Source: a virus. From it: DNA of 30,273 nt. Under the pieces are notes generated by a model. It saw nothing but the letters and a program-made list of their open reading frames with translations, was not told the DNA's origin and ran no database searches. The stretch is taken from the IMG/VR virus record IMGVR_UViG_3300021356_000109, positions 1 through 30,273 of that record; one strand, given 5' to 3'. The translations under genes were made by a program, and so were the position numbers. Shown piece by piece: positions 12,001 through 30,273 of the stretch. Position 1 is the stretch's first letter. Every line of letters begins with the position of its first letter.

Positions 12001-15000
12001 CCAGAGATTGGACAGTTTGGAAAAGACTTGTCACAGCTAATGGACGGAGTTGATTATGGCGGAGTTGAGGTAAAAGCATTTGACTTCGGAAATAAAGTTG
12101 GATGGGATACTGAGAAATGGTATGATACATCTTGGGATTCATATGATTTGACATTTACAGATCAGTCTTTCAAAGTTATTCCGCATATACTACCTTTTGC
12201 TCAGCTAGGTTATAAACTTTGGATCAATTGGGGACTTATTGGTAGAGATATAAATTTTGCTAAAGATCCTCTGAATCTTCCTGCTATGGCTAGTCCAAGT
12301 TTTATCAATATTTACAACAAAGGCAGTCAGTTTGAAATGGCTGATTTGATTCATGGTGAGGATGTGCAAAAATATGCTCTAGGAACATTAACAGATCCAG
12401 ATGCGTTGAGCACCATAGATAATTATTTAATACCTAGGTTTGGTGAGCTAACAGTAAATGAAATTGCTGAACTTATCAAAGATGGATTGCTAAAAGAGAT
12501 TGCTTTTGAAGCTCAACAACCATTGGAAAATGGTGAGCTATATAATGTTTATTACAACGGCATAAGAATTGACGATGAACAATATGGAACTGGCAATGAG
12601 ACAAATCCAAACGCCAAAGTAAAAACTATTACAGGTGACGGGACAAATACTAAAATTTTATTAAGAGAACTTGGTATTGATCCAGAAGTAGATGATATAT
12701 TTGTGTTACGCAAGCCGTCATCTGATGGTAGCTTCCTACCAAGCGAGTTTGATTACGATACTATGCTATCTGGTGGTAGTTTGACATATGCTAATGCTAA
12801 AGGTATTACAGCAGATGAGATTGTAGTAGATGGTGACAATTTTGTTACACCAATGACTAGCAAAGGACCAGAGGAACAAGTGCCAGGACACTTAGTTGAT
12901 ACACTAGACATTACAGTGTTTGAACGTCCTACACCAGGTGTCAGCACAATCACCAGTCGCAATTTTGTTACAGATGGAACAAATAAAATTTACCCAATAG
13001 GTGTATCTCCACTAACAGAGCATTCACTAATGGTAAAAATAGATGGGAAGCTCAAAAAAGTAAAGACAGATTATAAAATAAACTCAGCAGATCAAACCAT
13101 TGAGTTTGTGAGAAAGCCTAGAGCAGGTAGAAAAGTAAGTCTTATTACATTAGATTATAGTGGCACTGACATATTAGATGTTGATACTATTATAGCAGAT
13201 GGAGTATCAGTAGATTATTACATCAATGTTAGGTGGAGTGAAGATTTATCAAGTCAAGTGTCTGTAAATGCTGAGAATCAAGATTATACTCTAGTAAAAT
13301 CAGATGATTCATCTTATCCAACTCCAGATAATGTAGTTATACAATTTGCTATACCGCCTGCAGCAGGATCTATTATACGATACGCAATATTTAAAGGCGA
13401 CGAAGGAAAATATAGTACAGTAACTGTAGATACCTTTACAGCAGATGGATCTTCAATAGAATATCAATTATCGCAAATACCAGAGCAGCAAGAGCCAACA
13501 GAATGGTACACAATGGTATTGCTAAATGGTGAATTACTAAATCCAGGTTATGTTGAAACTATTACGCTAACAGAGGTAAGAGAATATAAGTTGAAGCTAT
13601 ATCAAGTTCCATTATCTTCAGTTGATGTAAAACAAATGAGAGTATTCCTAAATGATCACGAATTAGAACGTATTAAGGAATGGAGATATAGTTCATTGGA
13701 AGAAATTGATCCGTTGCTACACCCAGATCAACAAGCAGGAAGTCTAATACAGTTACAGCGTGGGGTAGGTAAGCCAGGCGATATTATGAAAGTATATGTA
13801 ACAGGACAAGAGAATCATCCAAAAAATGCAGTAAGTTCAGGCGGTGATTACAGATATGGTTATTTTGATTTACAAGGTGAATTTGTAAAAACACCAGGTA
13901 TACTTTATGTCAATAAGCCGCATAATGCAGGTGATGAAATTATGGTGTATCAGTTTAGCAATCATGATAGCCAAGGTATTGATTGGCAGTCCTATGATAT
14001 TGAGGAACGGACAGCATTACGACAAGGCTACATAGAAAGCTCGGCAGTGTTTATTGTTCCGCACCCCACCTCAGACATTACTTTAGATTTTGAGTTGGAG
14101 TATGGGTCCTTATATAGCGTCACACTAAACGATATTCGTATTGATGACATAAACTATGGAACAGATGAACCAGTAACAAACCCATTTGCAAAAATCAAAC
14201 CAATAGAAGGCGATGGTACTAATGTAATTCATCTACCAGACATTGGAACGTTCCTCAAAGAGAACGATTTTATGAGGATTGAGAAAATAGGAGCTGAGAT
14301 TATACATGACGCTAGTTCAAAAGATTGGTATGAGTTTAGATTGATGCAGAATGGATTTATTCCTCTAAACAAACCTGCTATTGAAGTATATTATGTTTGG
14401 GTAGCAGTAAATGGTAAGCTATTATCACCGAGTGTAGATTATCGCTTGACAAATGATAAAAAATATATTAAACTAGCAACAAACTTGATGGTAGGTGACA
14501 ACGTGCAGACAATACACTTTAGTAATCGTCCTCAGTCAGGAAAACTTGGATGGAGACAGTTTAAGGATGTTCTTAATAGAACTCATTATATGATTATAGA
14601 TGGTACAAAAAATATTGAACTAGCACAAGATTTGCATTGGAATGATAAAACAGTAGAGTTAGTAGATGGAACGCATTTACCAGATCCAGGCAAAGGAGCA
14701 AAAAATCCAGGTGTAGTGTTTATCAATAAAGAGAGGGTTGAATACTTTGAAAAAGTAAATAATAGGTTACAGCAGTTGCGTCGAGGAACATTAGGAACAG
14801 GAGTCAATGCTGTTGTTTCAGCTGGAACTGAGATTTATAATGGCTCGGTGACAATGATGCTGCCTTATAAAGACGAGACAAAAACCCTAACATATATAGC
14901 AGATGGAATATCTAATGAATATGAATTAGATTATATTCCTGAAAGTGTAAATGAGTTTGAAGTATATGTAGCTGGTGTGCGAATGCGTAAAACATTTTTA

Positions 15001-18037: not shown

Positions 18038-20086
18038 ATGAGTTATAGAATTAATAGAACTGATGGCGAGTTACTAATTGATTTGACGGATGGCGTCATT
18101 GATAAGTCTGTAACGGATCTTACGCTAATTGGTAAAAATTATAAAGGGTTTGGTGAATGGCTCAATGAAAACTTTATCAAACTACTTGAAAATTTTGCTT
18201 CTACATCGCAACCACCCAATCCTCTGACTGGACAGTTATGGTATGATAAACAAGATCAAAGACTAAAGATTTTTAATGGAACTTATTTTCGATCAGCAAC
18301 AGGAACTATAGTCAATAGTTCTCAACCTACAAATTTAGTAGCAGGTGATATTTGGATTGATAATGCTAATAACAGATTATACCTATATGATGGTGTAGAT
18401 TTGACATTAGTTGGTCCTACTTATGATGTAGGACAAGGGCGTACAGGTTTTGAAGCTGATACACAAATAGATATTAATAATACAGCACATACCATTATGA
18501 AAATGTTTATAGGTGGTAAGTTGGCTGGAATATTAGCAACAGAGGAATTTTGGATACCATATACTCACATTATTCCTACTTTAGATCCAGACCCAGAAGA
18601 TACTTTTAAACCACCACGACAGAGACTCAAAAAAGGTTTCAATATTGTGGACAAGGAAGCAGAATCTGGTGTTGATGGGTTTTGGTGGCGGGGAACTTCG
18701 GATCAAACCAAGGCGTTACTTGATGATTACGGTAATAGAAAAGAGTCTAAGCATTTTTTGCCAACAGACGGAGATGCTATTACAACAGGTTATATATCAA
18801 TTAAGAACTCTCAAGGATTGATTATTGGTGTAGGTGATAGGCCTTATATACAAACAAAAATATTTGGTAATACTGTTTATACAGATAATTTAGAAGTTGA
18901 TGCGAATTATAGCTTAAGAGTAAAAAATGCTCAATTCAAAAATAGTAATATTGAGGCATTTAGGGTTGATGCCTCAGACTATAAGATAACAATGTTTGCT
19001 GATTTGCCTATTACATATCAGCCTTTAACTAATCGATATGATTTTAGCTTATTAAGTGCTCGCCCAAAATTAGAGTTTTGGGGAGATGCATTTTTAGCAG
19101 GAGACCAACACTTTGCTGGAAATGTTAGCATCCAAGGTGACTTAGATGTAGCAGGTACAACAGTATATGTCAATACTGAAAATTTATATATACAAGATAA
19201 GAATATTGAGTTAGCTATTGATTCTGATGGCAACATAGTAAATGATGCTTTTGTAGATGAAGGCGGATTTATTCTAAAAAGTCTTGATGGTGATAAACAT
19301 TTTGTATGGGATGTTACATATAAAACATGGGAGTCTAATCAACATATAAATCTTGTAGCTGGACCTAGTATTACTGATCCGTCTTTTATGATAGACGGTG
19401 TACCAATTTTATCAGCTACTTCTTTAGCACCATCCGTAACAGTAGCACCAGGTATGACTCAACTGGGAACATTGACTGATTTGACAGTTGATAATGTTTT
19501 TATAAATGAAAACAAAATAGAAACTGTAGGAAGTGGTGTATATGGGCTTACAATAGATTCAAAAGGTGATATTAGCGTAACATCACAGAAGATAGTGGAT
19601 CTTGGAGATCCAATTAATAACAAGGATGCTGCCCATAAACAGTTTGTAGAAGAAACCATAGCAAGCCAAGGTGTTGTATTAGCATTTGACATTAATGGTT
19701 TGATGGTAGGTAACGATCCTCGAACAGCACCGTATAATGCTGGCACAATTGAGAATGTGAGAATAATAGCAGAGCAGATGAGATCAGCTACATTAGTATT
19801 ACCAGGAACAGTACTAAAGGTATTAGCAACATCTATCAAAGAGATATCAGCTACAATTCCTGTAACAATTGGTTATGGTAATGATACCACAATACAGTTA
19901 TCCAAAGTAACAGTAAGAAACTTTGATAATACTGGAACGGTTAATGTTATTGAAGACATTGCGGCTAATAGTACAAGCGATGGCGTTAGTGCGGATATTA
20001 GTTTTGAGGTTGAACGGTTTATTTATAAATTTGAAAGTGATGGGTTTAACTGGATTAATCCTGAAGTGGAACAGTTAGTTATCTAA
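18038..20086 (+). CDS. Tail fibre paralogue 2 (682 aa), non-collar C-terminus
   Basis: Residues 1-135 repeat the N-terminal domain of the upstream gene (TDGVIDKSVTDLTLIGKNY, ENFIKLLENFA, GQLWYD, GDIWID, LVGPTYD). The central part carries the pattern GDLDVAGTTVYVNTENLYIQD followed by LAID and a GGFILKSLDG/HFVWD segment (about 19126-19310), common in marine phage fibre and baseplate-wedge proteins. The C-terminal 200 residues (DLGDPINNKDAAHKQFVEE, then long beta strands) have no collar domain; the first part resembles the hinge segment 'DP..N.DAA.K.YVD' seen in many fibres just before the tip. The gene starts 4 bases after the previous stop, with agga 8-11 bases upstream. A second fibre or wedge-associated tip is inferred. 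Confidence 0.92.
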   Translation: MSYRINRTDGELLIDLTDGVIDKSVTDLTLIGKNYKGFGEWLNENFIKLLENFASTSQPPNPLTGQLWYDKQDQRLKIFNGTYFRSATGTIVNSSQPTNLVAGDIWIDNANNRLYLYDGVDLTLVGPTYDVGQGRTGFEADTQIDINNTAHTIMKMFIGGKLAGILATEEFWIPYTHIIPTLDPDPEDTFKPPRQRLKKGFNIVDKEAESGVDGFWWRGTSDQTKALLDDYGNRKESKHFLPTDGDAITTGYISIKNSQGLIIGVGDRPYIQTKIFGNTVYTDNLEVDANYSLRVKNAQFKNSNIEAFRVDASDYKITMFADLPITYQPLTNRYDFSLLSARPKLEFWGDAFLAGDQHFAGNVSIQGDLDVAGTTVYVNTENLYIQDKNIELAIDSDGNIVNDAFVDEGGFILKSLDGDKHFVWDVTYKTWESNQHINLVAGPSITDPSFMIDGVPILSATSLAPSVTVAPGMTQLGTLTDLTVDNVFINENKIETVGSGVYGLTIDSKGDISVTSQKIVDLGDPINNKDAAHKQFVEETIASQGVVLAFDINGLMVGNDPRTAPYNAGTIENVRIIAEQMRSATLVLPGTVLKVLATSIKEISATIPVTIGYGNDTTIQLSKVTVRNFDNTGTVNVIEDIAANSTSDGVSADISFEVERFIYKFESDGFNWINPEVEQLVI

Positions 20087-20126: not shown

Positions 20127-21671
20127 ATGGCGTATATTATTAATACATATAATACCGCTCAACTTACAGTAGTTGAAGATGGAACTATTGATCAAACTAC
20201 TGATTTGAAGCTGGTAGGTAAAAATTATGCAGGTTATGGCGAGATACAAAATGAAAACTTTGTATTCTTGCTTGAGAACTTTGCTGGAAATAATGAGCCA
20301 CCTAAAGCCTTACAAGGACAACTTTGGTTTGATGCAGCTAACCTAAAGTTGAAATTTTGGGATGGCAGTAAGTGGCGTTTAGCAGGAGGTTCTGAAGTAT
20401 CTGAAGTCCCCCCGGCTGGTTTATCAGAAGGTGATTTTTGGTGGGATGATAAAAATGATCAACTCTACTGTTGGAATGGTGATGAATACATTTTAGTAGG
20501 ACCACAAGGGGTTGGTGATAGTATTACAAGATTCCAAAGCCGTTCTATCCGAGATACGGCAGGTGTTTCTCGTCCAGTTATTTGCTCTGTAGTAGATGAT
20601 GAAGTAATTCACATTATTAGTGGTGTTGATTTTACTATTGGGCCTGAGGATGCACCAAAATATCCAGCTTTTGATGTAATTCACTCAGGACTTACATTAA
20701 AAAATACAGTTCACTCAACAGCAGGACAAACATCTACACATCATAGATGGTGGGGAACTGCTACAAACGCAGATAGATTAGGCGGCTACACTCCAGATCA
20801 GTTTGTACAAAAGACAGGGGCTACTTTCCCAAATATGGTAGGCTTTGGCGATGAAGGTGTTGCTATTGGTGATAGTAATGATTTACGATTGAAAATTATT
20901 AACGGAGATCAAGCACTTATTGCTAATGAGCAAGGCACAAATATGTATTTTCAAGTTAGAGATGTAAGTGGTAACTTGAGAATGCCAGTTAGACTAGTTG
21001 ATAATGCAATTCTTCCAGGATATGAAGTATTGTTTAGTCCAGGCTCATTGAGTGCTTCGTTTGCTTCTGCGGTAGGAAGATCAGTAGATGTTGGAAGTAT
21101 ATCATTTCCATTTCAAAATATGTTTGCTACATCCTTTAAAGGAAATGCTGACACTGCATCTAAATTAGCAGTTGGAGCAACATATCATTCAGCATCGGCT
21201 ACAGCACAAGCTAATACAATCGCAGCAAGAAATGCGACAGGAGATTTAGTAGCAAATATTTTCCATGGCATAGCAACCTCAGCTAGGTTTGCTGACTTGG
21301 CAGAGAAATATGAAGCAGATCAAGATTATGAGCCAGGCACTGTATTAGTATATGGTGGGTCAAAAGAAGTAACAATGAGTACTCGAAAAAATGACAACAA
21401 TGTTATTGGAGTTGTATCAACTAATCCGGCACATTTGATGAACGATGACATTGATGGTGTTGCTGTAGCACTGCGTGGTAGAGTTCCTTGTAAAGTAGTT
21501 GGTCCAGTGAAAAAAGGAGATTTTATTATTACATCTGATCGTCCAGGAGTTGGCAAAGCATTCAGTTTTCAAGATACTGGATCAGTCAAACCAGATTTTT
21601 ATTCTATTATTGGTAGAAGTTTAGAAGATAATAGTTCAGAAGATGTAAGGTTAGTAGAAATAGTAGTATAA
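20127..21671 (+). CDS. Tail fibre paralogue 3 (514 aa) with peptidase-G2-like C-terminus
   Basis: Residues 1-135 are the third copy of the shared N-terminal domain (VEDGTIDQTTDLKLVGKNY, ENFVFLLENFA, GQLWFD, GDFWWDD, LVGPQG). The stretch from about residue 335 (FKGNADTASKLA, ARNATGDLVANIF) is a common phage fibre repeat. The last 130 residues begin ADLAEKYEADQDYEPGTVL, continue with VIGVVSTNPA and VALRGRVPCKV, and end in an IIGRSLED segment. This order resembles peptidase-G2-type, self-cleaving C-terminal domains of phage fibres, which help trimers fold. No catalytic residue can be assigned from sequence alone, so the similarity is a suggestion. The start has agggg upstream; the last codons overlap a perfect late-promoter consensus. 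Confidence 0.92.
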   Translation: MAYIINTYNTAQLTVVEDGTIDQTTDLKLVGKNYAGYGEIQNENFVFLLENFAGNNEPPKALQGQLWFDAANLKLKFWDGSKWRLAGGSEVSEVPPAGLSEGDFWWDDKNDQLYCWNGDEYILVGPQGVGDSITRFQSRSIRDTAGVSRPVICSVVDDEVIHIISGVDFTIGPEDAPKYPAFDVIHSGLTLKNTVHSTAGQTSTHHRWWGTATNADRLGGYTPDQFVQKTGATFPNMVGFGDEGVAIGDSNDLRLKIINGDQALIANEQGTNMYFQVRDVSGNLRMPVRLVDNAILPGYEVLFSPGSLSASFASAVGRSVDVGSISFPFQNMFATSFKGNADTASKLAVGATYHSASATAQANTIAARNATGDLVANIFHGIATSARFADLAEKYEADQDYEPGTVLVYGGSKEVTMSTRKNDNNVIGVVSTNPAHLMNDDIDGVAVALRGRVPCKVVGPVKKGDFIITSDRPGVGKAFSFQDTGSVKPDFYSIIGRSLEDNSSEDVRLVEIVV

Positions 21672-21674
21672 ATA
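21667..21674 (+). promoter_or_regulatory. T4-type late promoter (TATAAATA, perfect consensus)
   Basis: TATAAATA matches the T4 late -10-like consensus at all 8 bases and overlaps the stop codon of the gene ending at 21671. In T4 this element is read by the late sigma gp55 with the sliding clamp. Transcription would start near 21680, leaving a 12-base leader that contains aagga (21681-21685) six bases before the ATG at 21692. Confidence 0.8.
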
Positions 21675-21691: not shown

Positions 21692-22669
21692 ATGCCAATT
21701 AACTATAAAGCTAGTGGTGCTACCATCTATGCCGAAGACTATAATAGGCTTCAAACCAAAGTTGCTGCTATACTTGGACAAGGTGGAGGTATTCACGGTG
21801 CAGATTATGGTTACGGACAAACTATAAAAAGTTCGCAAGTATCAGCAGTTAATGATTTAGTAACTGTAGAGCAAATGAATAATTTGCGACAAGATATAAT
21901 GACTTGCTGGTTTCATCAAACATCTGACGCATTTCCATTGTTATCAGTAGCCTCAACAGATACTATCACAGCTGGTGCAGGGACTACCTCAGCAATAATA
22001 TCAGAAGCAGTCAATAAAACTTATAATGATTATACTTGGGTAGTAAATAAAATTGATATTGAACGATTATCAGCTACCCCAGGCTCTATGAATTTAGTAA
22101 ATGATAAAGCATCAATGTCATTTTCTAATTGGAATTCATATAGAGTGCATGAAGTAGTTGTAACTTTTATAGATTCTAACCATAAAAGATATTTTTTCAA
22201 TAGTGGCGGAGAAATTAGACTCCAATCACAGCATGTTGGATCTTTCCTGTCGACATCTAAACCATATGTATGGCAGGAATTATTATCGTCAGCAGGAGTA
22301 ACTAAATTTGGTTATGATGATTATATATCATCAACTTCGGCGCCATCTGTATTATTGTTAAAAAATCCAAATGCTTCTGCTGTATATGCTGAAAATTATT
22401 ATAAGATATATTCTAGTGCCCCTTCAGCAAGCACATTATTATTTAAAATTGTTTTTAATGATGTTGATACTGGTGACAGACCAGCTAACTCAGGACCACC
22501 ACCGTACGGTGCGTTAATAGATGAAAATGTTACAGGAACAACCAAGAGCACGTTATCAATATATTACCCGTCTATGACTTATGTTGATCCAAGAGCAACA
22601 GCAAATAGTTATACTGGTGTAACGCTTACAGTACCAAACACAACATCTAGACAAGGAACTTCTATTTAA
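21692..22669 (+). CDS. Virion-surface/fibre-like protein, first of a tandem pair (325 aa)
   Basis: The 325-residue protein is paralogous to the next gene along most of its length. Shared points are the N-terminal segment (DYNRLQTKVAAILG, YGYGQ, NNLRQDI, CWFHQT at residues about 15-80), a central H.RYFFNSGGEIRL motif near 165-180, and a C-terminal VDTGDR ... LSIYYPS motif near 265-300. No signal peptide or known enzyme motif is visible. It lies directly behind the fibre genes and has its own perfect late-promoter site, so a virion structural role is likely. Similar proteins occur beside fibre genes in marine T4-like phages. The exact place in the particle is unknown. Confidence 0.88.
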   Translation: MPINYKASGATIYAEDYNRLQTKVAAILGQGGGIHGADYGYGQTIKSSQVSAVNDLVTVEQMNNLRQDIMTCWFHQTSDAFPLLSVASTDTITAGAGTTSAIISEAVNKTYNDYTWVVNKIDIERLSATPGSMNLVNDKASMSFSNWNSYRVHEVVVTFIDSNHKRYFFNSGGEIRLQSQHVGSFLSTSKPYVWQELLSSAGVTKFGYDDYISSTSAPSVLLLKNPNASAVYAENYYKIYSSAPSASTLLFKIVFNDVDTGDRPANSGPPPYGALIDENVTGTTKSTLSIYYPSMTYVDPRATANSYTGVTLTVPNTTSRQGTSI

Positions 22670-22678
22670 GAGACTAAT

Positions 22679-23575
22679 ATGCCAATATCAAGTAGAAACA
22701 CTAGCCAAACTTTATCAGCAACACATTACAATGAGTTAAGGAATAAAATTGTATCAATTTTAGGAACTGGTTCAGGTAACTATGGTTATGGACAAGGAAC
22801 TTCCAGTTCTACAGTTGCTGCAGGAGCAAGCGGTGGGCATGTATCAGCATCACAAATGTCGCAACTAAGAGCAGACATTTATAAATGTTGGTTACATCAA
22901 ACGGGATCAACTTTTAGCTTACAAGTGCCAACAGGAGGTTCTGATGTATATAGAGCAGGAAGTTCAGGAGATAGTGATTACCAAAAGACGCATAATGCTT
23001 ATATAGCAGCAATCAATTCTTGTGAGTCTAATAGGTTAACAGCTAATCCAACACAAATGACGTTAGTTACAGGATTATCAGGAAAATCAATAGGCTCTGG
23101 ATGGAATGATTCTAGAAGTCTTACACATACTGTAACTTTTTCAAACTCAAATCATAGGCGATGGTTCTTCAATGCAGGCGGGTATATAAGATTTTCCATT
23201 GGATTGTCATATTCAGGAGGTCAATCAAAGACTCGTGATTGGGTGAATATATGTTCAAGATTTAATGGTTATACTTATGCTTACTCCAATTGGAATAATG
23301 GATCAGGAACAGGAACTCTTGCTAGTTATGGCGGTGGCACTTCTAGTTCTGCATATAATGATAATTACGCAAATATGGCAGTGAGCTACCCAAATTCAAA
23401 TAGTATAAGGTTTGTGCAAAATTTTGTAGATGCCGATGTTGGAAGACGATCTGGAAATCCATATTGGAGATCTGCATATGACGAAACAGTATTAGGCACA
23501 ATAAGTTCGTCAGTATCAATTTATTATCCAACAGGATCTTCTTCAGTTTCATTAGCTCGCCCTTCAGTATCATAA
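22679..23575 (+). CDS. Virion-surface/fibre-like protein, second of a tandem pair (298 aa)
   Basis: This paralogue of the gene ending at 22669 starts 9 bases after it. It keeps HYNELRNKIVSILG, NYGYGQ, SQLRADIYKCWLHQTG, NHRRWFFNAGGYIRF and the C-terminal VDADVGRR ... SVSIYYPTG motif. It is richer in Gly, Ser and Asn in its central third than its neighbour (for example NNGSGTGTLASYGGG), as fits a surface protein. The ribosome-binding site is weak (aagag before the ATG), so expression may depend on coupling to the upstream gene. Structural role inferred; no family name recognised. Confidence 0.88.
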   Translation: MPISSRNTSQTLSATHYNELRNKIVSILGTGSGNYGYGQGTSSSTVAAGASGGHVSASQMSQLRADIYKCWLHQTGSTFSLQVPTGGSDVYRAGSSGDSDYQKTHNAYIAAINSCESNRLTANPTQMTLVTGLSGKSIGSGWNDSRSLTHTVTFSNSNHRRWFFNAGGYIRFSIGLSYSGGQSKTRDWVNICSRFNGYTYAYSNWNNGSGTGTLASYGGGTSSSAYNDNYANMAVSYPNSNSIRFVQNFVDADVGRRSGNPYWRSAYDETVLGTISSSVSIYYPTGSSSVSLARPSVS

Positions 23576-23589
23576 CCACTTTTTATATT

Positions 23590-23643
23590 ACCGTTCATCA
23601 AATATAATATATACATAAAAGGAGTCACGTATGGATGAACGGT
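23590..23643 (+). repeat. Perfect 10-bp inverted repeat around the start of the 115-residue gene
   Basis: accgttcatc (23590-23599) and gatgaacggt (23634-23643) are exact reverse complements separated by 34 bases. The loop holds the ribosome-binding sequence (23618-23624) and the start codon (23631-23633), and the right arm begins at the second codon. In read-through mRNA this stem could hinder ribosome entry. No U-run follows the right arm, so it does not look like a terminator. Confidence 0.6.
23603..23617 (+). promoter_or_regulatory. AT-rich promoter candidate in the 55-base gap
   Basis: The gap between 23575 and 23631 contains TATAAT (23603-23608, a sigma70 -10 match with only a poor -35 in the T-run before it) and TATACATA (23610-23617, 7 of 8 bases of the T4 late consensus). 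A start from TATACATA would fall near 23623, inside the ribosome-binding sequence aaaggag (23618-23624), which argues against it. A start from TATAAT near 23615 would keep that sequence. Neither is certain. Confidence 0.3.
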
Positions 23644-23978
23644 TAGAAAAAGCATTAGAGTTTTCCAATTTTATGGTTACTCTAAATAATCAAAAAAGAA
23701 TTTTTCAAGAAACATACTATCAAGATATTTTACATTATCATAAAGGAGCACAATTTTCTGTAAATCAGCAGTTAATTTGTTTCGTCAAGATTATGCTAAT
23801 GGAAGAACAGGAATCTGTAGTATTAATAGATGATAATGGCAGGCCTGTTGAGATTGAAGACTTACAAAAGTTCTATGATACAATTTTAAGTGTATATGTT
23901 GAAGCTAGTAATTCTTATATGAGCAAATATGATCATCTTATAAACAATAGATCAATAGAAAAAATGGTAAAACTATGA
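23631..23978 (+). CDS. Conserved small protein of marine T4-like phages (115 aa), function unknown
   Basis: The 115-residue protein reads LEFSNFMVTLNNQKRIF near its N-terminus, GAQFSVNQQLICFVK in the middle and VVLIDDNGRPVEIEDLQKF near residues 73-90. It appears mainly helical, with one short beta/turn segment (LIDDNGRPV). Similar short proteins occur among structural and fibre genes of marine T4-like phages, but I know of no assigned function. The start has a strong aaaggag site at 6 bases spacing and is enclosed by the 10-bp inverted repeat described separately. It is the first gene of a run that continues by overlaps to the window's end; its stop overlaps the next start (atga). It could be a structural accessory protein or chaperone; this is not shown. 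Confidence 0.88.
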   Translation: MDERLEKALEFSNFMVTLNNQKRIFQETYYQDILHYHKGAQFSVNQQLICFVKIMLMEEQESVVLIDDNGRPVEIEDLQKFYDTILSVYVEASNSYMSKYDHLINNRSIEKMVKL

Positions 23979-24880
23979 AAAGTCGAGGGGCGCTTGTTAT
24001 AGCAAGAAATAACGCAAATGTTGATTATTTAAAACAAGCGGCATTTTTAGCACAACGACTAGATCATTATTTAAATATTCCTACTTCAGTTGTTACTGAT
24101 AGCCCAGATTGGGTAGCAGCAAATGGCTATATGGATATATTTGATAGAGTTATTCCAATTGTATGGGAAGATAAAGAATCATTACCAGGTAAAAATGTTA
24201 TGGCTAGAACAGACCCGCATTATACTTGGGAAAATGTTAGACGATATTATGATGGTGTTTTGTCACATAGATCATTGCCATTTAAAAATGAAGCTAGGAC
24301 TTCGGCATATGACGCCACACCATATGACGAAACTCTTTTAATAGACAGTGATATGTTTATTATGAATGACGATTATAAACATTGTTTTGAACAAGATCAT
24401 AATTTTCTTATTTATGATAAGTCTTATGACTTAGCAGGGTTTAGAGATCCAATAGAGTTTAAGTATATTAGTCGGCCTAGTATAAAGTTTTATTGGGCAA
24501 CAGTTATATTTTTTAGAAGATCTAAAGAAAATGAAATCTTTTTTGAGTTATTAAAGCATATACAAGATAATTGGTATCATTATAGAGCCATCTTCCAAAT
24601 ACCATCAGCTTTATATCGCAATGATTTTGCGTTTAGTATAGCGATTCATATTATGAATGGATACGAAGAAGGAACATTTTCAATGCCAATGCCAGGTAAG
24701 TTATTTTTTACAACAGATAAAGATATTTTATGGGATGCTAATAAAGATCGTATAAATTTTTTATTAGAGAAAGAAGACTATCCAGGAGAGTATACAATAT
24801 GCCAATGGCGTAATGAAAACATTCATGTTATGAACAAGTTTAGTTTAGAACGATATATTGATAAGGTGTTTCATGTCTAA
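23975..24880 (+). CDS. Glycosyltransferase-like protein 1 (GT-A type, 301 aa)
   Basis: The N-terminus (RGALVIARNNANVDYLKQA) and the following VVTDSPDW segment look like the nucleotide-binding half of a GT-A enzyme. Residues 117-130 read YDETLLIDSDMFIM, with Asp124-Ser-Asp126 as the likely DXD metal and sugar-nucleotide site. The layout resembles glycogenin/GT8-like enzymes, but the family cannot be fixed by eye. The second half (NDFAFSIAIHIMNG near residues 209-222) matches the equivalent part of the next gene, so the two are paralogues. The start overlaps the upstream stop by 4 bases (atga). No signal peptide or membrane segment is seen, so it acts in the host cytoplasm. Donor and acceptor are unknown; fibre or host-surface glycan modification is inferred from neighbours. 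Confidence 0.88.
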   Translation: MKSRGALVIARNNANVDYLKQAAFLAQRLDHYLNIPTSVVTDSPDWVAANGYMDIFDRVIPIVWEDKESLPGKNVMARTDPHYTWENVRRYYDGVLSHRSLPFKNEARTSAYDATPYDETLLIDSDMFIMNDDYKHCFEQDHNFLIYDKSYDLAGFRDPIEFKYISRPSIKFYWATVIFFRRSKENEIFFELLKHIQDNWYHYRAIFQIPSALYRNDFAFSIAIHIMNGYEEGTFSMPMPGKLFFTTDKDILWDANKDRINFLLEKEDYPGEYTICQWRNENIHVMNKFSLERYIDKVFHV

Positions 24881-25760
24881 AGGATTTGTAATATATGCTA
24901 GTGGATTAGAGTATGTAAATCAGGCTTATATTTGCGCCATTAGTATAAAAGAAAAAGAAAACTCATATCCAGTAACAGTTGTTACTTGTGATGAATTAAC
25001 TGATCAACAGAAACAAGTATTTGATGATGTAGTACCAATACCTTGGCATGAGCATGATAATACACGATATCAAGTTTTGAATCGATGGAAGACTTATCAT
25101 GCTTCACCATATGATGAGACAATTGTATTAGATGCTGATACTTTGGTAACACAAAATATTGATGATTGGTGGGATTTTTTTAGTAAGTATGAATTATTTT
25201 TTCCATCTAGAGTTTATACATACCGAGGTGAATTAGTTACTGGACATTATTATCGTAAAGCATTTGTAGAAAATAATTTACCAAGTGTATATACTGGAAT
25301 ACATTATTTTAGAAAAGATGATTTAGCTTATGAATTTTTTAAATGGTTAGAGCTTATATCAAATAACTGGGAATTGTTCTATGGACAGTATTGCAAAGAT
25401 TATTATCCGCCTGCGCCAAGTATGGATGTATCTACAGCAATCGCAATTAAAATTTTAGAATTAGATCAAACAGTAACTAATAATAAAACTAATCTTATAA
25501 ATTTTGTTCATATGAAAGAACGATTACAAGGCTGGCCAAATATTCGATCTACGTGGTTAAAACACGTTGGAGTTTATTTAACAGATGAATTAGATTTGAT
25601 TATAGGTAATCATCGCCAAAGAGGAGTTTTTCATTATGTTGATTCTGATTTTTTATCTGAGGATATATGTGACATATATGAAAAGAAATATTTTCCTAGT
25701 AAACTTTACGAAGAGGTAATAGTTGGTATTCTACCATTTAAAAAAGGTGATGCTGTATGA
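24873..25760 (+). CDS. Glycosyltransferase-like protein 2 (GT-A type, 295 aa)
   Basis: This is a paralogue of the upstream protein: KGFVIYASGLEYVNQA at the N-terminus, TVVTCDELTDQ near residues 35-45, and YDETIVLDADTLV at 80-92 with Asp87-Ala-Asp89 as the likely DXD site. MDVSTAIAIKILE in the second half corresponds to the DFAFSIAIHI stretch of its neighbour. I chose the ATG at 24873 over an in-frame TTG at 24858, because ATG gives the sequence MSKGFVIYASG typical for this N-terminus and has an aaggtg site just upstream. The gene overlaps the previous stop by 8 bases and the next start by 4 (atga). Soluble. A sugar transfer reaction is likely; donor, acceptor and pathway are unknown. Confidence 0.87.
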   Translation: MSKGFVIYASGLEYVNQAYICAISIKEKENSYPVTVVTCDELTDQQKQVFDDVVPIPWHEHDNTRYQVLNRWKTYHASPYDETIVLDADTLVTQNIDDWWDFFSKYELFFPSRVYTYRGELVTGHYYRKAFVENNLPSVYTGIHYFRKDDLAYEFFKWLELISNNWELFYGQYCKDYYPPAPSMDVSTAIAIKILELDQTVTNNKTNLINFVHMKERLQGWPNIRSTWLKHVGVYLTDELDLIIGNHRQRGVFHYVDSDFLSEDICDIYEKKYFPSKLYEEVIVGILPFKKGDAV

Positions 25761-26362
25761 GTTATGTTTGTTTTAACGTTCGAGAAGGAAATATTCTAGC
25801 AATTACAAATAATGAACCGACTGAAGATTTAGATTTTGATTGTGAGTGGAAACATATTACAGTAGATGTAGCTGAGGTTGAAGATATATTACTAGGAAAT
25901 GAGGATTACGCAAATTTTAAAGTAATGTATGATAGAACTGCATTTAGCTATAAAATAAAAAGAATAGAAATAACACCAGTAGATGAATTAAATATTCAAG
26001 AAATTGTATACAAAGTTCCACAAGTTTATAAACATTTCGACGCTGATATTAGGTTATTACAAGATATAGACAAGACTTGTTGGAAAGTTTATATTAGCAA
26101 GGATGCGGCTGGAAAACTTAGATCAGAATTTGCTAGTTTAAAACTAGTTTTGCATTTTTCAGTTACGCAATTCAATAACCCCAATATATTATATCGTATA
26201 TTAAAAGTAGATTTAGAAAAGTTAGTAAATGAGCATCATTATATTTTGCATTTTAAGGATAAATGGGAATATGATCCATTTTTTCCTATAAGTATTTTTA
26301 CCGTAAGAAGATTTGACACTTATACATATCAAAGAGTAATAGATTATGGAGAAGACGTTTAA
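25757..26362 (+). CDS. MSYV-family protein A (201 aa), function unknown
   Basis: No known family recognised. Residues 1-70 (MSYVCFNVREGNILAITNN, VEDILLGNEDYANFKVMYD) look like a small beta-rich domain. The N-terminus of the incomplete gene at 30041 resembles it closely (MSYVYYNDDGIIIAASN, IEKLLIGEHKPSEYKVY). The remaining 130 residues (DADIRLLQDID, CWKVYISKDA, LHFSVTQFNNPNILYRILKVD) look like a second beta-rich domain, missing from what can be seen of the paralogue. The gene is coupled to the upstream gene by an atga overlap with aaggtga before it, and overlaps the next by 17 bases. The position between glycosyltransferase genes suggests it is a partner, carrier or substrate of the enzymes, or a small virion protein; the sequence does not decide. 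Confidence 0.88.
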   Translation: MSYVCFNVREGNILAITNNEPTEDLDFDCEWKHITVDVAEVEDILLGNEDYANFKVMYDRTAFSYKIKRIEITPVDELNIQEIVYKVPQVYKHFDADIRLLQDIDKTCWKVYISKDAAGKLRSEFASLKLVLHFSVTQFNNPNILYRILKVDLEKLVNEHHYILHFKDKWEYDPFFPISIFTVRRFDTYTYQRVIDYGEDV

Positions 26363-27275
26363 GGTATTAGATTATGATATAATTTACCTCAGTTATGATG
26401 AACCAAATGCAGAGCAAAATTATGCTGATTTATGTAAGAAGATTCCGTGGGCTAAAAGAGTTCATGGAGTAGAAGGATCAGATGCAGCACATAAAGCCTG
26501 TGCTGATATATCTGAGACAGATAGGTTTGTAACTATTGATGGTGACAACCGAATTCGTGAACATTTTCTAACCCAAGAGATTAATTTTGGTGATCATTAT
26601 GAGCTAGAAGATAAAGTCATTAGTTGGTGCGGACATAATGTTATAAATGGACTTATGTATGGCAATGGCGGTGTAAAATGCTGGCCCAAAGAGTTTGTCT
26701 TAAATATGCGAACACACGAAAATGCAGATCCAGACAATCCACACGCACAGGTGGATTTCTGTTGGGATGTAGAATACATTCAAATGAACTCTTGCTTCTC
26801 AGACATTTACAATAACGCAACTCCGCAACAAGCATGGAGAGCTGGCTTTCGTGAAGGCGTAAAGATGGCGTTGGACCAAGGCGTAAAACCATCTCTTGAG
26901 GACTTTAAAAATAACCACTGGAAAAACCTCCACAGGCTGTTTATTTGGCTTATGGTGGGTAATGATGTTGAGAATGGAATGTGGGCGATCTTGGGCGCTA
27001 GACAAGGTTTATACAAGACGATGTGTACCGATTGGAACTATGTTCAAGTAAGAGACTTTACCTATTTAAATAATTTATGGGATGACGAAGTTAGCAAACT
27101 AACAACAACAGATGCCGAAGGAGAAGTTATTTGGTTTGGCAGAATGTTAGAAGAAGAATTAGATCTGCCAATAGATAGAAAACCCTTAACAGAAAAGCAA
27201 AGTAAATTTTTCAAAACAGTATATCAAAATCCAACTAGAATTTCTAGAGCAGTAATTGATCCGGAGATGGAATGA
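26346..27275 (+). CDS. Glycosyltransferase-like protein 3 (GT-A/GT2-like, 309 aa)
   Basis: The N-terminus (YDIIYLSYDEPNAEQNYADL) and RVHGVEGSDAAHKACAD (residues 38-54) followed by FVTIDGDNRI (61-70, Asp65-Gly-Asp67 as likely DXD) give the usual order of a family-2-like GT-A enzyme. NGLMYGNGGVKCW (101-113) follows, a motif I associate with phage-encoded members. The protein is not close to the two upstream GT-like proteins, so it is a separate lineage. It starts inside the previous gene (17-base overlap) without a strong ribosome-binding site, suggesting translation by coupling, and overlaps the next gene by 4 bases (atga). From about 26690 on, base composition looks less AT-rich than in the upstream GT genes. 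Catalysis is likely; substrates are unknown. Confidence 0.83.
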   Translation: MEKTFKVLDYDIIYLSYDEPNAEQNYADLCKKIPWAKRVHGVEGSDAAHKACADISETDRFVTIDGDNRIREHFLTQEINFGDHYELEDKVISWCGHNVINGLMYGNGGVKCWPKEFVLNMRTHENADPDNPHAQVDFCWDVEYIQMNSCFSDIYNNATPQQAWRAGFREGVKMALDQGVKPSLEDFKNNHWKNLHRLFIWLMVGNDVENGMWAILGARQGLYKTMCTDWNYVQVRDFTYLNNLWDDEVSKLTTTDAEGEVIWFGRMLEEELDLPIDRKPLTEKQSKFFKTVYQNPTRISRAVIDPEME

Positions 27276-28693
27276 GAGAAAATCAGCGTGGTGATCAAGT
27301 CTCACTAGTTGAAGGACGGTATGTCTCAAAATATTTTAAAGATAGTAAAGAGACACTAGCAGATCTCAATGCCGTTAGTCCATCATTCTGCCTAGCAAAA
27401 TGGTTCAATGTGTCAATTCACATCCCAACAGGGCAGACTCATAGTTGTTATCATCCTCAATCTCACGCTATACCATTAGACGAGTTAGCGGCTAATCCCG
27501 ATGCTATTCATAATACCAGCCATAAAATACAGCAGCGGTATAAGATGTTAGAAGGAGAGCGTCCAAAAGAATGTAGTTACTGCTGGGATATTGAAGATCA
27601 AGGCAATATTAGCGACAGAGCTTACCGCAGTAATGATGTTCAAGAGGAAGGACTAGTTCAAAAAGCATTAGCCAATGTTCAACACCCAACTCCGCGCTAT
27701 ATGGAGGTAAATTTTAATCAGGCTTGTAATTTCAAGTGTGCTTATTGTTCTCCGCACTTATCTACAGAGTGGCTCAAAGAGGTACAAGAACATGGCGGTT
27801 ACAAATTATCATCAGGAACGCATAATGATAAAGGTTGGGTAGATAGATTAGGTATCGATAACAGTCCAGATAATCCTTATGTTCAATCGTTTTGGGAATG
27901 GTGGCCCACTGTATATAAGGATCTAAAAACATTTAGAATGACAGGCGGTGAACCGCTAATGGATAAGAATACTTTTAGGGTATTTGATTATGTAAAAGAA
28001 AACCCAAATCCAGAACTTAATTTGTGTATTACAAGTAATTGTTGTCCGCCAGGCAATCAATGGAATAAGTTTATGGATGCTATAAAAGAAATAGCAAATG
28101 AAGAAACACTCAACCATTTTCAATTGTATTGTAGCTTAGATACTTGGGGAGAGCAAGCAGAATATATTCGTAACGGTTTAGATTATGAAATACTAAGAAA
28201 AAATATTATACAATTTTTAACAGAATGTAAAAATCATAGCTTGGGCTTTATAATCACTTCAAATTTGCTTAGTCTTCCTAATTGGTGTAAGTTTATAGAA
28301 ACTATTCATGAGTTACGATGTAATATAAATAATGAGAGACAACTAATATGGTTTGATACTCCTATGCTACATCATCCTAATTGGCTGAGTATGAGACTAG
28401 CAACACCTGAAATGCTTAATAACTTACAACTTAGTATAAACTTTATGGAAGAAAATAAAGAAACTTCCAATAATAGATTTAAAGGTTTTAAAGATTTTGA
28501 GATTGACAAAGTAAGACGATTATATGATTGGGCTAAACAGCCTTTTAGTGATGAAGAAGAACAGAAACATAAGATAGATTTTTATCTATTTTTTACTGAG
28601 CACGATAAAAGACGCAACACAAATTTTACAAAAACATTTCCAACTATGACAAACTTTATTAAACAGTGTAAGGAGTATTATGAGCAACGGTGA
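27272..28693 (+). CDS. Radical-SAM enzyme 1 with N-terminal auxiliary Cys set (473 aa)
   Basis: A radical-SAM core is shown by C-x3-C-x2-C (CNFKCAYC, Cys152, 156, 159) and by GGEP (225-228) in FRMTGGEPLM, the SAM-binding motif. SLDTWGEQAEYIRNG lies near 285. Upstream of the core are four cysteines: Cys40 (FCLAKW), Cys59 (SCYHP), and Cys101 and Cys104 (ECSYCW). The next gene repeats the first three with the same spacing (19, 42, 3 residues). They could hold a second iron-sulfur cluster, as SPASM/twitch proteins do at the C-terminus; here the set precedes the core. The family includes peptide- and protein-modifying enzymes, though other substrates exist. It is coupled to the GT gene before it by an atga overlap with a ggagatgga site. 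Target unknown. Confidence 0.9.
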   Translation: MRENQRGDQVSLVEGRYVSKYFKDSKETLADLNAVSPSFCLAKWFNVSIHIPTGQTHSCYHPQSHAIPLDELAANPDAIHNTSHKIQQRYKMLEGERPKECSYCWDIEDQGNISDRAYRSNDVQEEGLVQKALANVQHPTPRYMEVNFNQACNFKCAYCSPHLSTEWLKEVQEHGGYKLSSGTHNDKGWVDRLGIDNSPDNPYVQSFWEWWPTVYKDLKTFRMTGGEPLMDKNTFRVFDYVKENPNPELNLCITSNCCPPGNQWNKFMDAIKEIANEETLNHFQLYCSLDTWGEQAEYIRNGLDYEILRKNIIQFLTECKNHSLGFIITSNLLSLPNWCKFIETIHELRCNINNERQLIWFDTPMLHHPNWLSMRLATPEMLNNLQLSINFMEENKETSNNRFKGFKDFEIDKVRRLYDWAKQPFSDEEEQKHKIDFYLFFTEHDKRRNTNFTKTFPTMTNFIKQCKEYYEQR

Positions 28694-30044
28694 TGATCAT
28701 GTCCAAAAAGTGCGAGCTGTTGCAGATAGACTGAACGCAGTAGGTCCAGGATTTTGTGCTATGAAATGGTTACACCAAACTTTGTATTTACATACAGGTG
28801 ATAATCATAGCTGTTACCATCCACGCCCGCATCATATTCCTTTACATAATTTAAAAGATAATCCATCTGCGTTACATAATACTGATTGGAAGAAAGAGCA
28901 AAGAAAAATAATGTTAGAAGGCGGGCGCCCAGATGAGTGTTATTATTGCTGGAATATTGAAGATTTAGAAGGCGATCATTTGTCAGATAGGATGTTTCAT
29001 AGCTCTAGTTCGTTTGCTGAACCAGCGATTGAACAAATAGCAAAGATGCCTTGGGACGCTAATATAAACCCAAGGTATTTAGAAGTATCGTTTGGTAACG
29101 GATGTAACTATAGATGTGGTTATTGTTGTCCTCAAGCAAGCACTTTATGGATGGAAGAAATTGAGACACACGGCAATTATGATTTGACATATAATCAGTA
29201 TGGAACAGAGTTTTTGCGAAGCGGAAAGTATTATGGTCCAAATGATGATAATCCGTATATTGACGCATTTTGGAAATGGTGGCCCAGCTTAAAAAATGAT
29301 TTATGGACACTTCGTATTACTGGCGGTGAGCCATTAATGAATCCTGGAGCTATGCAGTTTTTTGATTTATTGGAAAATGAACCATCTCCAAACCTAGAGA
29401 TCAGCCTAAATAGTAATTTAGGTGTTACTACAAAAAAGATCGATAGAATGTATGATAGGATACGAAGTTTATTAGATCAAAAGAAAATTAGACATTTTAG
29501 ACTTTTTTCAAGTATTGATACTTGGGGCCCGCAAGCTGAATATATGCGAACTGGAATGAAGTTAGATCACTGGGAACGCAATCTTAAAAAAGCATTGGAG
29601 ATGGGGTTTGAGGTTAGTCTTATGTGTACATTTAACGTTTTATGTGTTACAAACTATAAATCGTTGTTACATAAAATAAAAGAATGGAGAGCAGAGTATG
29701 GTAAAAATGCTATTTCATTTGATGTTCCCTATCTTAAAGAACCGCCTCATTGGATGATTAATATCTTGCCTGAAAGTTTTATGGATTACATGCATGATAC
29801 GCTAGACTTTATTCATAATGATTCTGATTTTTTATCAGTAGAGTATGAGAGATTTAAACGAGTCACCAATTATATGAAAACCAATCCAGTTGATCAGAGT
29901 AAAATTTTACAAGGGCAACGAGATTTTTATTCTTTCTTTACAGAAAATGATAAACGATTAGGAACTGATTTGTTAGCTACATTTCCTGAGTATAAAGATT
30001 TTTATTATTATTGTAAAGACGTCTACGAGACTTATGAAAAATGA
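28680..30044 (+). CDS. Radical-SAM enzyme 2, paralogue of the upstream gene (454 aa)
   Basis: The protein matches its upstream neighbour in domain order: Cys26 (FCAMKW), Cys45 (SCYHP), Cys87 and Cys90 (ECYYCW), then the core C-x3-C-x2-C (CNYRCGYC, Cys142, 146, 149), GGEP (215-218) in LRITGGEPLM, SIDTWGPQAEYMRTG near 285, and a shared C-terminus (FFTENDKR, TFPEYKDF). An extra Cys150 follows the core motif. No SPASM-type cysteine cluster is seen at the C-terminus. The start has aaggag (28670-28675) and overlaps the previous gene by 14 bases. Two paralogous enzymes in tandem suggest successive or differing modifications, or a heteromeric pair. The substrate is unknown; an adjacent protein or a virion protein is possible. 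Confidence 0.9.
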   Translation: MSNGDDHVQKVRAVADRLNAVGPGFCAMKWLHQTLYLHTGDNHSCYHPRPHHIPLHNLKDNPSALHNTDWKKEQRKIMLEGGRPDECYYCWNIEDLEGDHLSDRMFHSSSSFAEPAIEQIAKMPWDANINPRYLEVSFGNGCNYRCGYCCPQASTLWMEEIETHGNYDLTYNQYGTEFLRSGKYYGPNDDNPYIDAFWKWWPSLKNDLWTLRITGGEPLMNPGAMQFFDLLENEPSPNLEISLNSNLGVTTKKIDRMYDRIRSLLDQKKIRHFRLFSSIDTWGPQAEYMRTGMKLDHWERNLKKALEMGFEVSLMCTFNVLCVTNYKSLLHKIKEWRAEYGKNAISFDVPYLKEPPHWMINILPESFMDYMHDTLDFIHNDSDFLSVEYERFKRVTNYMKTNPVDQSKILQGQRDFYSFFTENDKRLGTDLLATFPEYKDFYYYCKDVYETYEK

Positions 30045-30273
30045 GCTATGTATATTATAATGACGATGGAATAATAATAGCCGCGTCAAATGATTTGTTA
30101 GAAGATTTTTCAGATGCTAATATTTTAGAAATTAAATTTAAAAAAATAGAAAAATTGTTAATTGGTGAGCATAAGCCATCAGAGTATAAAGTTTATAAAA
30201 ATAAACTGATATATGAAAAAGAAAAAATAGACCCTATGCTACCGCTTGAGCCAGAACCTGAACCTGAGCCAGA
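30041..30273 (+). CDS. MSYV-family protein B, 3' end outside window (first 77 codons)
   Basis: The frame opens at the ATG at 30041 (atga overlap with the radical-SAM stop) and is still open at the window edge. The first 65 residues resemble those of the 201-residue protein at 25757: MSYVYYNDDGIIIAASN against MSYVCFNVREGNILAITNN, and IEKLLIGEHKPSEYKVY against VEDILLGNEDYANFKVM. Instead of continuing into the second domain of that protein, it then enters a Glu-Pro repeat (EPEPEPEP, 30246-30273), usually a stiff linker. What follows is not visible. Such a layout would fit a small domain tethered to another domain. No function is recognised. Confidence 0.8.
   Translation, partial: MSYVYYNDDGIIIAASNDLLEDFSDANILEIKFKKIEKLLIGEHKPSEYKVYKNKLIYEKEKIDPMLPLEPEPEPEP

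Follow-up and report, generated by a model that had tools for sequence, protein, structure and literature searches.

Gene order of the cassette

The DNA analyzed here is a 30-kb virus record from IMG/VR (IMGVR_UViG_3300021356_000109, positions 1 to 30,273; we call this whole stretch of 30,273 nucleotides the window), whose contig end falls within its last gene. Directly behind a set of tail-fibre genes, it carries a cassette with the core order w0-GT1-GT2-MS-GT3, in which GT stands for glycosyltransferase, followed by a variable row of radical S-adenosylmethionine (radical-SAM) genes with an N-terminal twitch domain (Table 1). A reading made from the letters alone, without database searches (the sequence-only reading), had described seven consecutive genes here, three encoding GT-A-like proteins, two radical-SAM enzymes and two members of a small "MSYV" family, overlapping by 4 to 17 bases. 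All seven open reading frames are present with these overlaps; GT2 starts at either TTG 24858 or ATG 24873, and with the ATG the junctions from GT1 through MSYV-B overlap by 8, 4, 17, 4, 14 and 4 bases. The unit begins one gene earlier than had been described, however, with w0, which was omitted.

Using iterated per-gene profiles, we found the full five-gene order in 152 of 163 MS-bearing viral loci. IMG/VR was scanned twice, by GT3 and by GT1 profiles, for a yield of 160 loci, and there are at least 593 GT3 relatives overall; locus counts are of records, some of them near-identical copies, and not of independent lineages. Because neither scan drew on w0, GT2, MS or any radical-SAM gene, their co-occurrence is informative. 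In relatives the order is constant (fibre, fibre-associated protein, w0, GT1, GT2, MS, GT3 and then usually radical-SAM genes), and that of the core is kept even in distant relatives at 36-53% identity. It was also present in 6 of 10 loci from contigs of metagenome-assembled genomes (MAGs), one contig being 335 kb. The sequence-only reading had staked its cluster on the neighbors staying together in related phages, and they do so in more than 150 related viral contigs. Immediately 3' of GT3 lies a radical-SAM gene at 103 loci, a second GT3-like gene at 19, another gene at 11 and the contig end at 19. Where a second GT3-like gene takes the place of the radical-SAM gene, the loci (L142-L146, L149, L153, L156-L160, L162, L164, L166, L169-L174, L176-L179) include several that are apparently lake-derived, judging by sample ids alone.

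The overlaps recur in the 152 relatives at w0/GT1 (99%), GT1/GT2 (97%), GT2/MS (72%) and MS/GT3 (93%). As the same junctions overlap in most of these loci, the overlaps in the window are not due to chance, and they imply coupled translation. The equimolar production that had been deduced from the overlapping starts does not follow, since overlap implies coupling only.

Among 50,697 phage records, tblastn found no match for MS, GT1, GT3 or w0, and GT2 matched solely in Synechococcus ACG-2014f (27%). Nucleotide searches of the phage records with the window, or with a freshwater GT2-MS stretch, likewise gave no match.

Table 1. Cassette genes, promoter motifs and flanking genes of the window
Feature	Position	Strand	Evidence
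w0, 115-aa protein, first cassette gene	23631..23978	+	found in 164/178 screened loci; 4-base overlap with GT1; co-varies with GT1, GT2 and MS
GT1, putative GT-A (GT8-like) glycosyltransferase	23975..24880	+	GT2 profile family; D124xD126 invariant in 52 homologues
GT2, putative GT-A (GT8/glycogenin-like) glycosyltransferase	24873..25760 (ATG; TTG start alternative 24858)	+	Pfam Mannosyl_trans3 above cut-off; PHROG phrog_1903
MS (MSYV-A), two-domain protein, fastest-evolving cassette member	25757..26362	+	AlphaFold model; conservation
GT3, predicted GT-A-fold glycosyltransferase-like protein, DGD residues 65-67	26346..27275	+	AlphaFold predicted local distance difference test (pLDDT) 88.9; D65 and D67 invariant
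rSAM1, radical-SAM enzyme with N-terminal twitch domain	27272..28693	+	NCBIfam NF033640, 312.7 bits, profile positions 1-397
rSAM2, radical-SAM enzyme, rSAM1 paralogue	28680..30044	+	NCBIfam NF033640, 309.2 bits, profile positions 3-398
MSYV-B, MS-type N-domain, runs off contig	30041..30273	+	read as part of a 520-aa fusion in six near-identical relatives
T4-late-type promoter motif TATAAATA, just 5' of f0 (21692)	21667..21674	+	relatives show enrichment of the motif 5' of fibre genes
Weak sigma-70-like promoter 5' of w0: TTTTTA 23580-23585, 17-base spacer, TATAAT 23603-23608	23580..23608	+	scored sequence
TATACATA, one mismatch from late motif, upstream of w0	23610-23617	+	
Giant baseplate/virion structural protein, 5076 aa, single ORF (open reading frame); flanking context, outside cassette	46..15276	+	PHROG phrog_10938, E 3.9e-199
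Tail-fibre-type protein; context	18038..20086	+	36-37% over ~200 aa against fibre 20127-21671; syntenic in relatives
Tail-fibre-type protein, C-terminus intramolecular-chaperone-like; context	20127..21671	+	PHROG tail fiber matches; syntenic in relatives
Fibre-associated protein f0; context	21692..22669	+	f1 paralogue, 35-36% identity; syntenic
Fibre-associated protein f1; context	22679..23575	+	f0 paralogue; syntenic

Protein families, promoters and co-variation

GT1 and GT2 are putative GT8/glycogenin-like glycosyltransferases. The GT2 profile matches glycogenin (GT8) with an E value of 1.3e-6 over residues 3-105, including a DxD motif (D92/D94, numbered from TTG 24858) that is invariant in 52 homologues; GT2 differs from that family in aligning by its N-terminal third only, the C-terminal part having no match. 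GT1's own glycogenin match is weak (E 0.14), and the two proteins are 23% identical (E 4e-6), with iterated profiles of both gathering the same 336 proteins. GT3 had no match to the PDB by sequence, and from its model it is a predicted GT-A enzyme: the top Foldseek matches are mainly GT-A enzymes, with RmlT, SunS and ThuS as the best (E about 3e-4, probability 0.98, with low template modeling (TM) scores of about 0.3). A GT3-like fusion protein of a relative has a weak match to Glycos_transf_2, below the cut-off. The sequence-only reading had tied its assignment of all three proteins to a sugar-nucleotide site, and the glycogenin profile match of GT2, the GT-A model match of GT3 and the invariant DxD in each of the three point to one; the paralogy that it had seen between GT1 and GT2 is borne out by the alignment above. 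No hydrophobic segment above threshold, and so no transmembrane segment, was found in 40 homologues of each cassette protein. Many relatives encode fusion proteins, 500-1100 aa long, that include a GT3-like domain; one 549-aa protein (L012:10249-11898) has at least two tandem repeats followed by such a domain.

The two radical-SAM proteins, 35% identical to each other, are paralogues as had been read. Both are firmly placed in NCBIfam NF033640 (N_Twi_rSAM), exceeding its curated cut-off of 170 bits by about 140 bits, which upholds their identification as radical-SAM enzymes. The motif C152xxxC156xxC159 of rSAM1 and its N-terminal Cys 40, 59, 101 and 104 are invariant in 7 homologues. The name of the family carries no function, and the gene neighborhood and a fusion to the MS-type N-domain are additional here. 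In the relative G004 (L005), the island extends for about 27 kb and holds 12 radical-SAM matches, 7 of them above the N_Twi_rSAM cut-off, together with a second GT3-like protein and a sulfotransferase-like gene. Genes resembling those for SGNH hydrolases, nitroreductases, 2-oxoglutarate (2OG)-type oxygenases, an ATP-PPase and a pyridoxal phosphate (PLP) enzyme also lie in this island, several of these labels having been given by eye or from sub-threshold Pfam matches. Its tailoring-type genes behind the fibres (G004:15000-43600; L012, L013) stop before structural genes of opposite orientation.

MS and w0 have no characterized relatives among the structures searched. MS yields a confident AlphaFold model (pLDDT 91.9, predicted TM score (pTM) 0.69), which matches nothing in the PDB by sequence or by fold; its fold matches in BFVD are solely unnamed or uncharacterized viral proteins, and the Hsp90 N-domains considered as fold relatives were rejected as meaningless (TM ~0.13). 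Because only Met1 reaches 95% conservation in MS, while the GTs retain dozens of such residues, MS is probably non-catalytic. Long MS forms (278-459 aa) have inserted segments with weak, below-cut-off similarity to CBM5/12, a motif that is suggestive only. For w0, the PDB gave marginal, unrelated matches only.

The sequence-only reading had also taken MSYV-B for a second small gene and had the MSYV family framing GT3 and the radical-SAM genes. In six relatives, ~95% identical to the window in rSAM1, the MSYV-B frame encodes a 520-aa protein with an MSYV-like N-domain of ~60 residues, a SPASM domain and a radical-SAM domain, and MSYV-B is 78% identical to that N-domain over 64 aa. MSYV-B is thus most likely the beginning, encoding the N-domain, of another radical-SAM gene, the third, which the end of the contig truncates. 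A small gene is not shown, and the framing is weak: the likeness of MSYV-A and MSYV-B is real (E about 2e-6), but it is limited to the ~60-aa N-domain.

The cassette and the fibre genes differ in their promoters. In relatives, the T4-late motif (with at most one mismatch) occurs upstream of fibre genes in 30/38 and 21/40 cases, against 5.7 and 10.7 expected, and cassette genes show no such enrichment. Instead, a near-consensus sigma-70 promoter (TTGACA-17-TATACT/TATAAT, the spacer nearly always being 17 bases) stands 5' of w0 in 27 of 40 dereplicated loci, against 1.4 expected, and in 65 of 96 distinct upstream regions. Across the whole window, the T4-late motif is no commoner than chance, its signal being position-specific only. 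In the relative G010, the late motif precedes the genes for the tail sheath and for a large protein with FG-GAP repeats, and the sigma-70 class precedes those for an SbcD-like phosphoesterase, a deoxynucleoside monophosphate (dNMP) kinase and an HldE-like protein. By analogy with the relatives, we infer early expression of the window's own copy of the cassette. A sigma-70 site before GT3 in 16 of 40 loci was discarded as a promoter, as it sits within the MS coding end; its TTGAC and TATACT appear to be spelled by the conserved MS residues F-D and Y-T.

Cassette and fibre genes also separate by sequence co-variation. Sequence distances among the 40 dereplicated loci, compared by Mantel test, showed that w0, GT1, GT2 and MS co-vary as a block (rho 0.54-0.67, p 0.001), as do the fibre and the fibre-associated protein (rho 0.49), whereas correlations between cassette and fibre genes across the blocks were only 0.01-0.21. 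Neither block has more than a loose tie to GT3 or the first radical-SAM gene. We propose that the cassette is inherited separately from the late tail-fibre genes beside it.

Virus type and known islands

The window belongs to a large T4-like marine myovirus, probably a jumbo phage. T4 gp23 is encoded by 3 of 13 long cassette-bearing contigs; one of these capsid proteins shares 68-71% identity with its counterparts in Vibrio phage 2.275.O, Sinorhizobium phage Phosso and Pseudomonas phage PA5oct, whose genomes all span 280-470 kb. The giant protein at the left of the window shares 27-29% identity with proteins of the jumbo T4-like phages PA5oct/Cassandra (Pseudomonas), Atu_ph07 (Agrobacterium) and SCTP-2 (Salicola). 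These phages also share its left flank of giant baseplate-type protein, ~200-aa protein and then large fibre-type genes, although in Atu_ph07 the ~200-aa protein is placed elsewhere and a single radical-SAM gene lies nearby; they differ from the window in having no annotated GT cassette 3' of the fibres. The moraphages were considered as a described lineage for the window and set aside, the excerpts of PMC12619734 placing them outside the T4 group. Several relatives (L135, L161, L167, L168) have an opposite-strand radical-SAM gene inserted between the two fibre-associated genes. The whole cassette is also present in PBPT01000016 (335 kb) and PBPT01000082 (153 kb; L180/L184), which were binned as Candidatus Neomarinimicrobiota and come from an assembly with contigs that also carry phage gp23; they are probably jumbo phage contigs misbinned into a MAG, which is relevant to the question of the host.

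Islands of GT and radical-SAM genes beside T4-like fibre genes are already known. In pelagimyophages and cyanomyophages, the host recognition cluster (HRC) is a hypervariable island beside T4-like tail fibres with GTs, GT8 being the most represented, and radical-SAM cassettes, and the neighboring pelagimyophage GTs have been read as modifying the host O-chain (PMC7029224, excerpts). Relatives of the window likewise show fibres, GTs and a variable radical-SAM tail, with gp23 in their contigs, but by capsid and baseplate proteins they are closer to jumbo phages of the PA5oct/Atu_ph07 type. The HRC lies between VrlC and gp14; the window shows the giant baseplate-type protein on the left, and the contig stops short of the right flank. 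Those excerpts mention neither the ordered core nor the MS family nor the sigma-70 promoter. About a dozen radical-SAM genes per T4-like genome, as in G004, have also been reported: 11 and 12 in Campylobacter phages CP220 and CPt10, part of them in an interchangeable module (PMC2853527), and 12 in the marine T4-like TARA_ERS488813_N000010 (PMC5332604). We therefore do not regard the number of radical-SAM genes as new. The excerpts of those two papers describe no GT1-GT2-MS-GT3 core, so it is by their descriptions that these phages are set apart from the window. P22-type O-antigen conversion (gtrABC) differs in its GtrA membrane flippase and transmembrane GT, which have no counterpart among the cassette proteins.

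Within the open-licence literature, then, the ordered core, the MS family, the MS-radical-SAM fusion and the sigma-70 promoter appear undescribed. The sequence-only reading knew of no system with this composition, which holds in the searched literature for the exact core but overlooks the related islands of PMC7029224 and the radical-SAM-rich T4-like phages of PMC2853527 and PMC5332604.

Proposed role of the cassette

Because the cassette barely co-varies with the fibres and in most relatives has a sigma-70 rather than a T4-late promoter, we favor early remodeling of the host surface over tailoring of the virion, a tentative preference to which we give slightly less than an even chance. Starting from the observed content, order, overlaps, co-variation, enzyme families and promoter classes of relatives, we infer the following steps. 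Early in infection, the host's sigma-70 RNA polymerase would transcribe the cassette in most relatives, and the overlapping starts would let the proteins be co-produced as a soluble complex, in which the non-catalytic subunits w0 and MS would determine the acceptor or keep the GTs in place. In the cytoplasm, GT1 and GT2 would add sugars to an envelope precursor (lipopolysaccharide (LPS) core, O-chain or surface glycoprotein), drawing on sugar nucleotides of the host or made by the phage. GT3 and the radical-SAM enzymes might then extend and chemically edit the glycan or its carrier, and a surface changed in this way would deprive competing phages of their receptors.

On the contig of L021 (G010), genes for an HldE-like bifunctional kinase/nucleotidylyltransferase, an epimerase, a cupin and a HAD phosphatase lie together under a perfect sigma-70 promoter (L199:14023-17477) as a putative operon of the ADP-heptose type, and G011 carries at least the HldE-like gene. 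These HldE-like genes suggest that some relatives may make a donor of the ADP-heptose type.

Several observations weigh against host-surface remodeling. The loci used for co-variation were collected via GT1 or GT3, which biases the set, and the window's own w0 promoter has a perfect -10 and a poor -35 and could be a degenerate late promoter. HldE occurs in only 2 of 26 contigs, all of them fragments, so that its absence says little. The analysis yielded no substrate; a flippase, a lipid anchor and an initiating transferase are all missing from the cassette, and its GTs have no transmembrane anchor. Moreover, two of the nearest solved relatives, glycogenin and SunS/ThuS, have proteins or peptides rather than LPS as acceptors.

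This last point would suit a role in the virion, with the GTs and radical-SAM enzymes modifying the adjacent tail-fibre or adhesin proteins, or with MS itself as a virion glycoprotein, so as to alter host recognition or shield the particle. The constant placement of the cassette directly behind the fibre genes in relatives also fits such tailoring, as do the rapid evolution of MS with its weak CBM5/12-like motifs in long forms, and the late promoter of f0 in the window could read through. We nevertheless consider it unlikely: in most relatives the cassette has a sigma-70 promoter of its own while the fibres are late, and its genes do not co-vary with those of the fibres. The sequence-only reading had left open whether virion or host-surface components are tailored; the virion half of that suggestion is weakened by these promoters and distances, and the host-surface half fits better.

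The wealth of radical-SAM genes raises the further idea of a secreted metabolite or peptide that the island makes or tailors and the GTs glycosylate. G004 would fit it, with its 12 radical-SAM matches, its sulfotransferase-like gene and its weak matches to nitroreductase, PLP-enzyme and ATP-PPase types, and radical-SAM enzymes with twitch/SPASM domains are generally known to have peptide substrates in many cases (PMC8326336). Yet the core also occurs with no adjacent radical-SAM gene, at the 19 loci where a second GT3-like gene stands in its place, and neither a precursor peptide nor a transporter was noticed in the island, no search having been aimed at either; we regard a pathway of this kind as distinctly improbable. 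More improbable still, to the point of being hard to credit, is that the GTs glycosylate modified bases of the phage DNA and so block restriction. Phage GTs are known to do so (cited in the excerpts of PMC12619734), and early expression would fit, but no gene for base hydroxylation or hydroxymethylation was noticed in the window or the G004 island, which were not searched systematically for one. GT1 and GT2, moreover, are GT8-like, and the link to the fibre genes would go unexplained.

A bolder reading of the cassette is one that we hold to be somewhat unlikely as a whole. Here w0, MS, GT1 and GT2 would constitute a new phage glycosylation complex under an early host-type promoter, with MS as its fast-evolving specificity subunit or acceptor, and this complex would feed an exchangeable series of N-twitch radical-SAM enzymes, whose unusual chemistry would act on the glycan or carrier.

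A hypervariable GT/radical-SAM island has now become a defined, testable unit: its five genes keep one order, one of its protein families is undescribed, and its promoter class sets it apart from the neighboring late genes. The cassette offers a natural system in which to learn what the common N-twitch radical-SAM enzymes do. If host-surface remodeling is true, it would be a widespread means for large ocean phages to exclude competitors.

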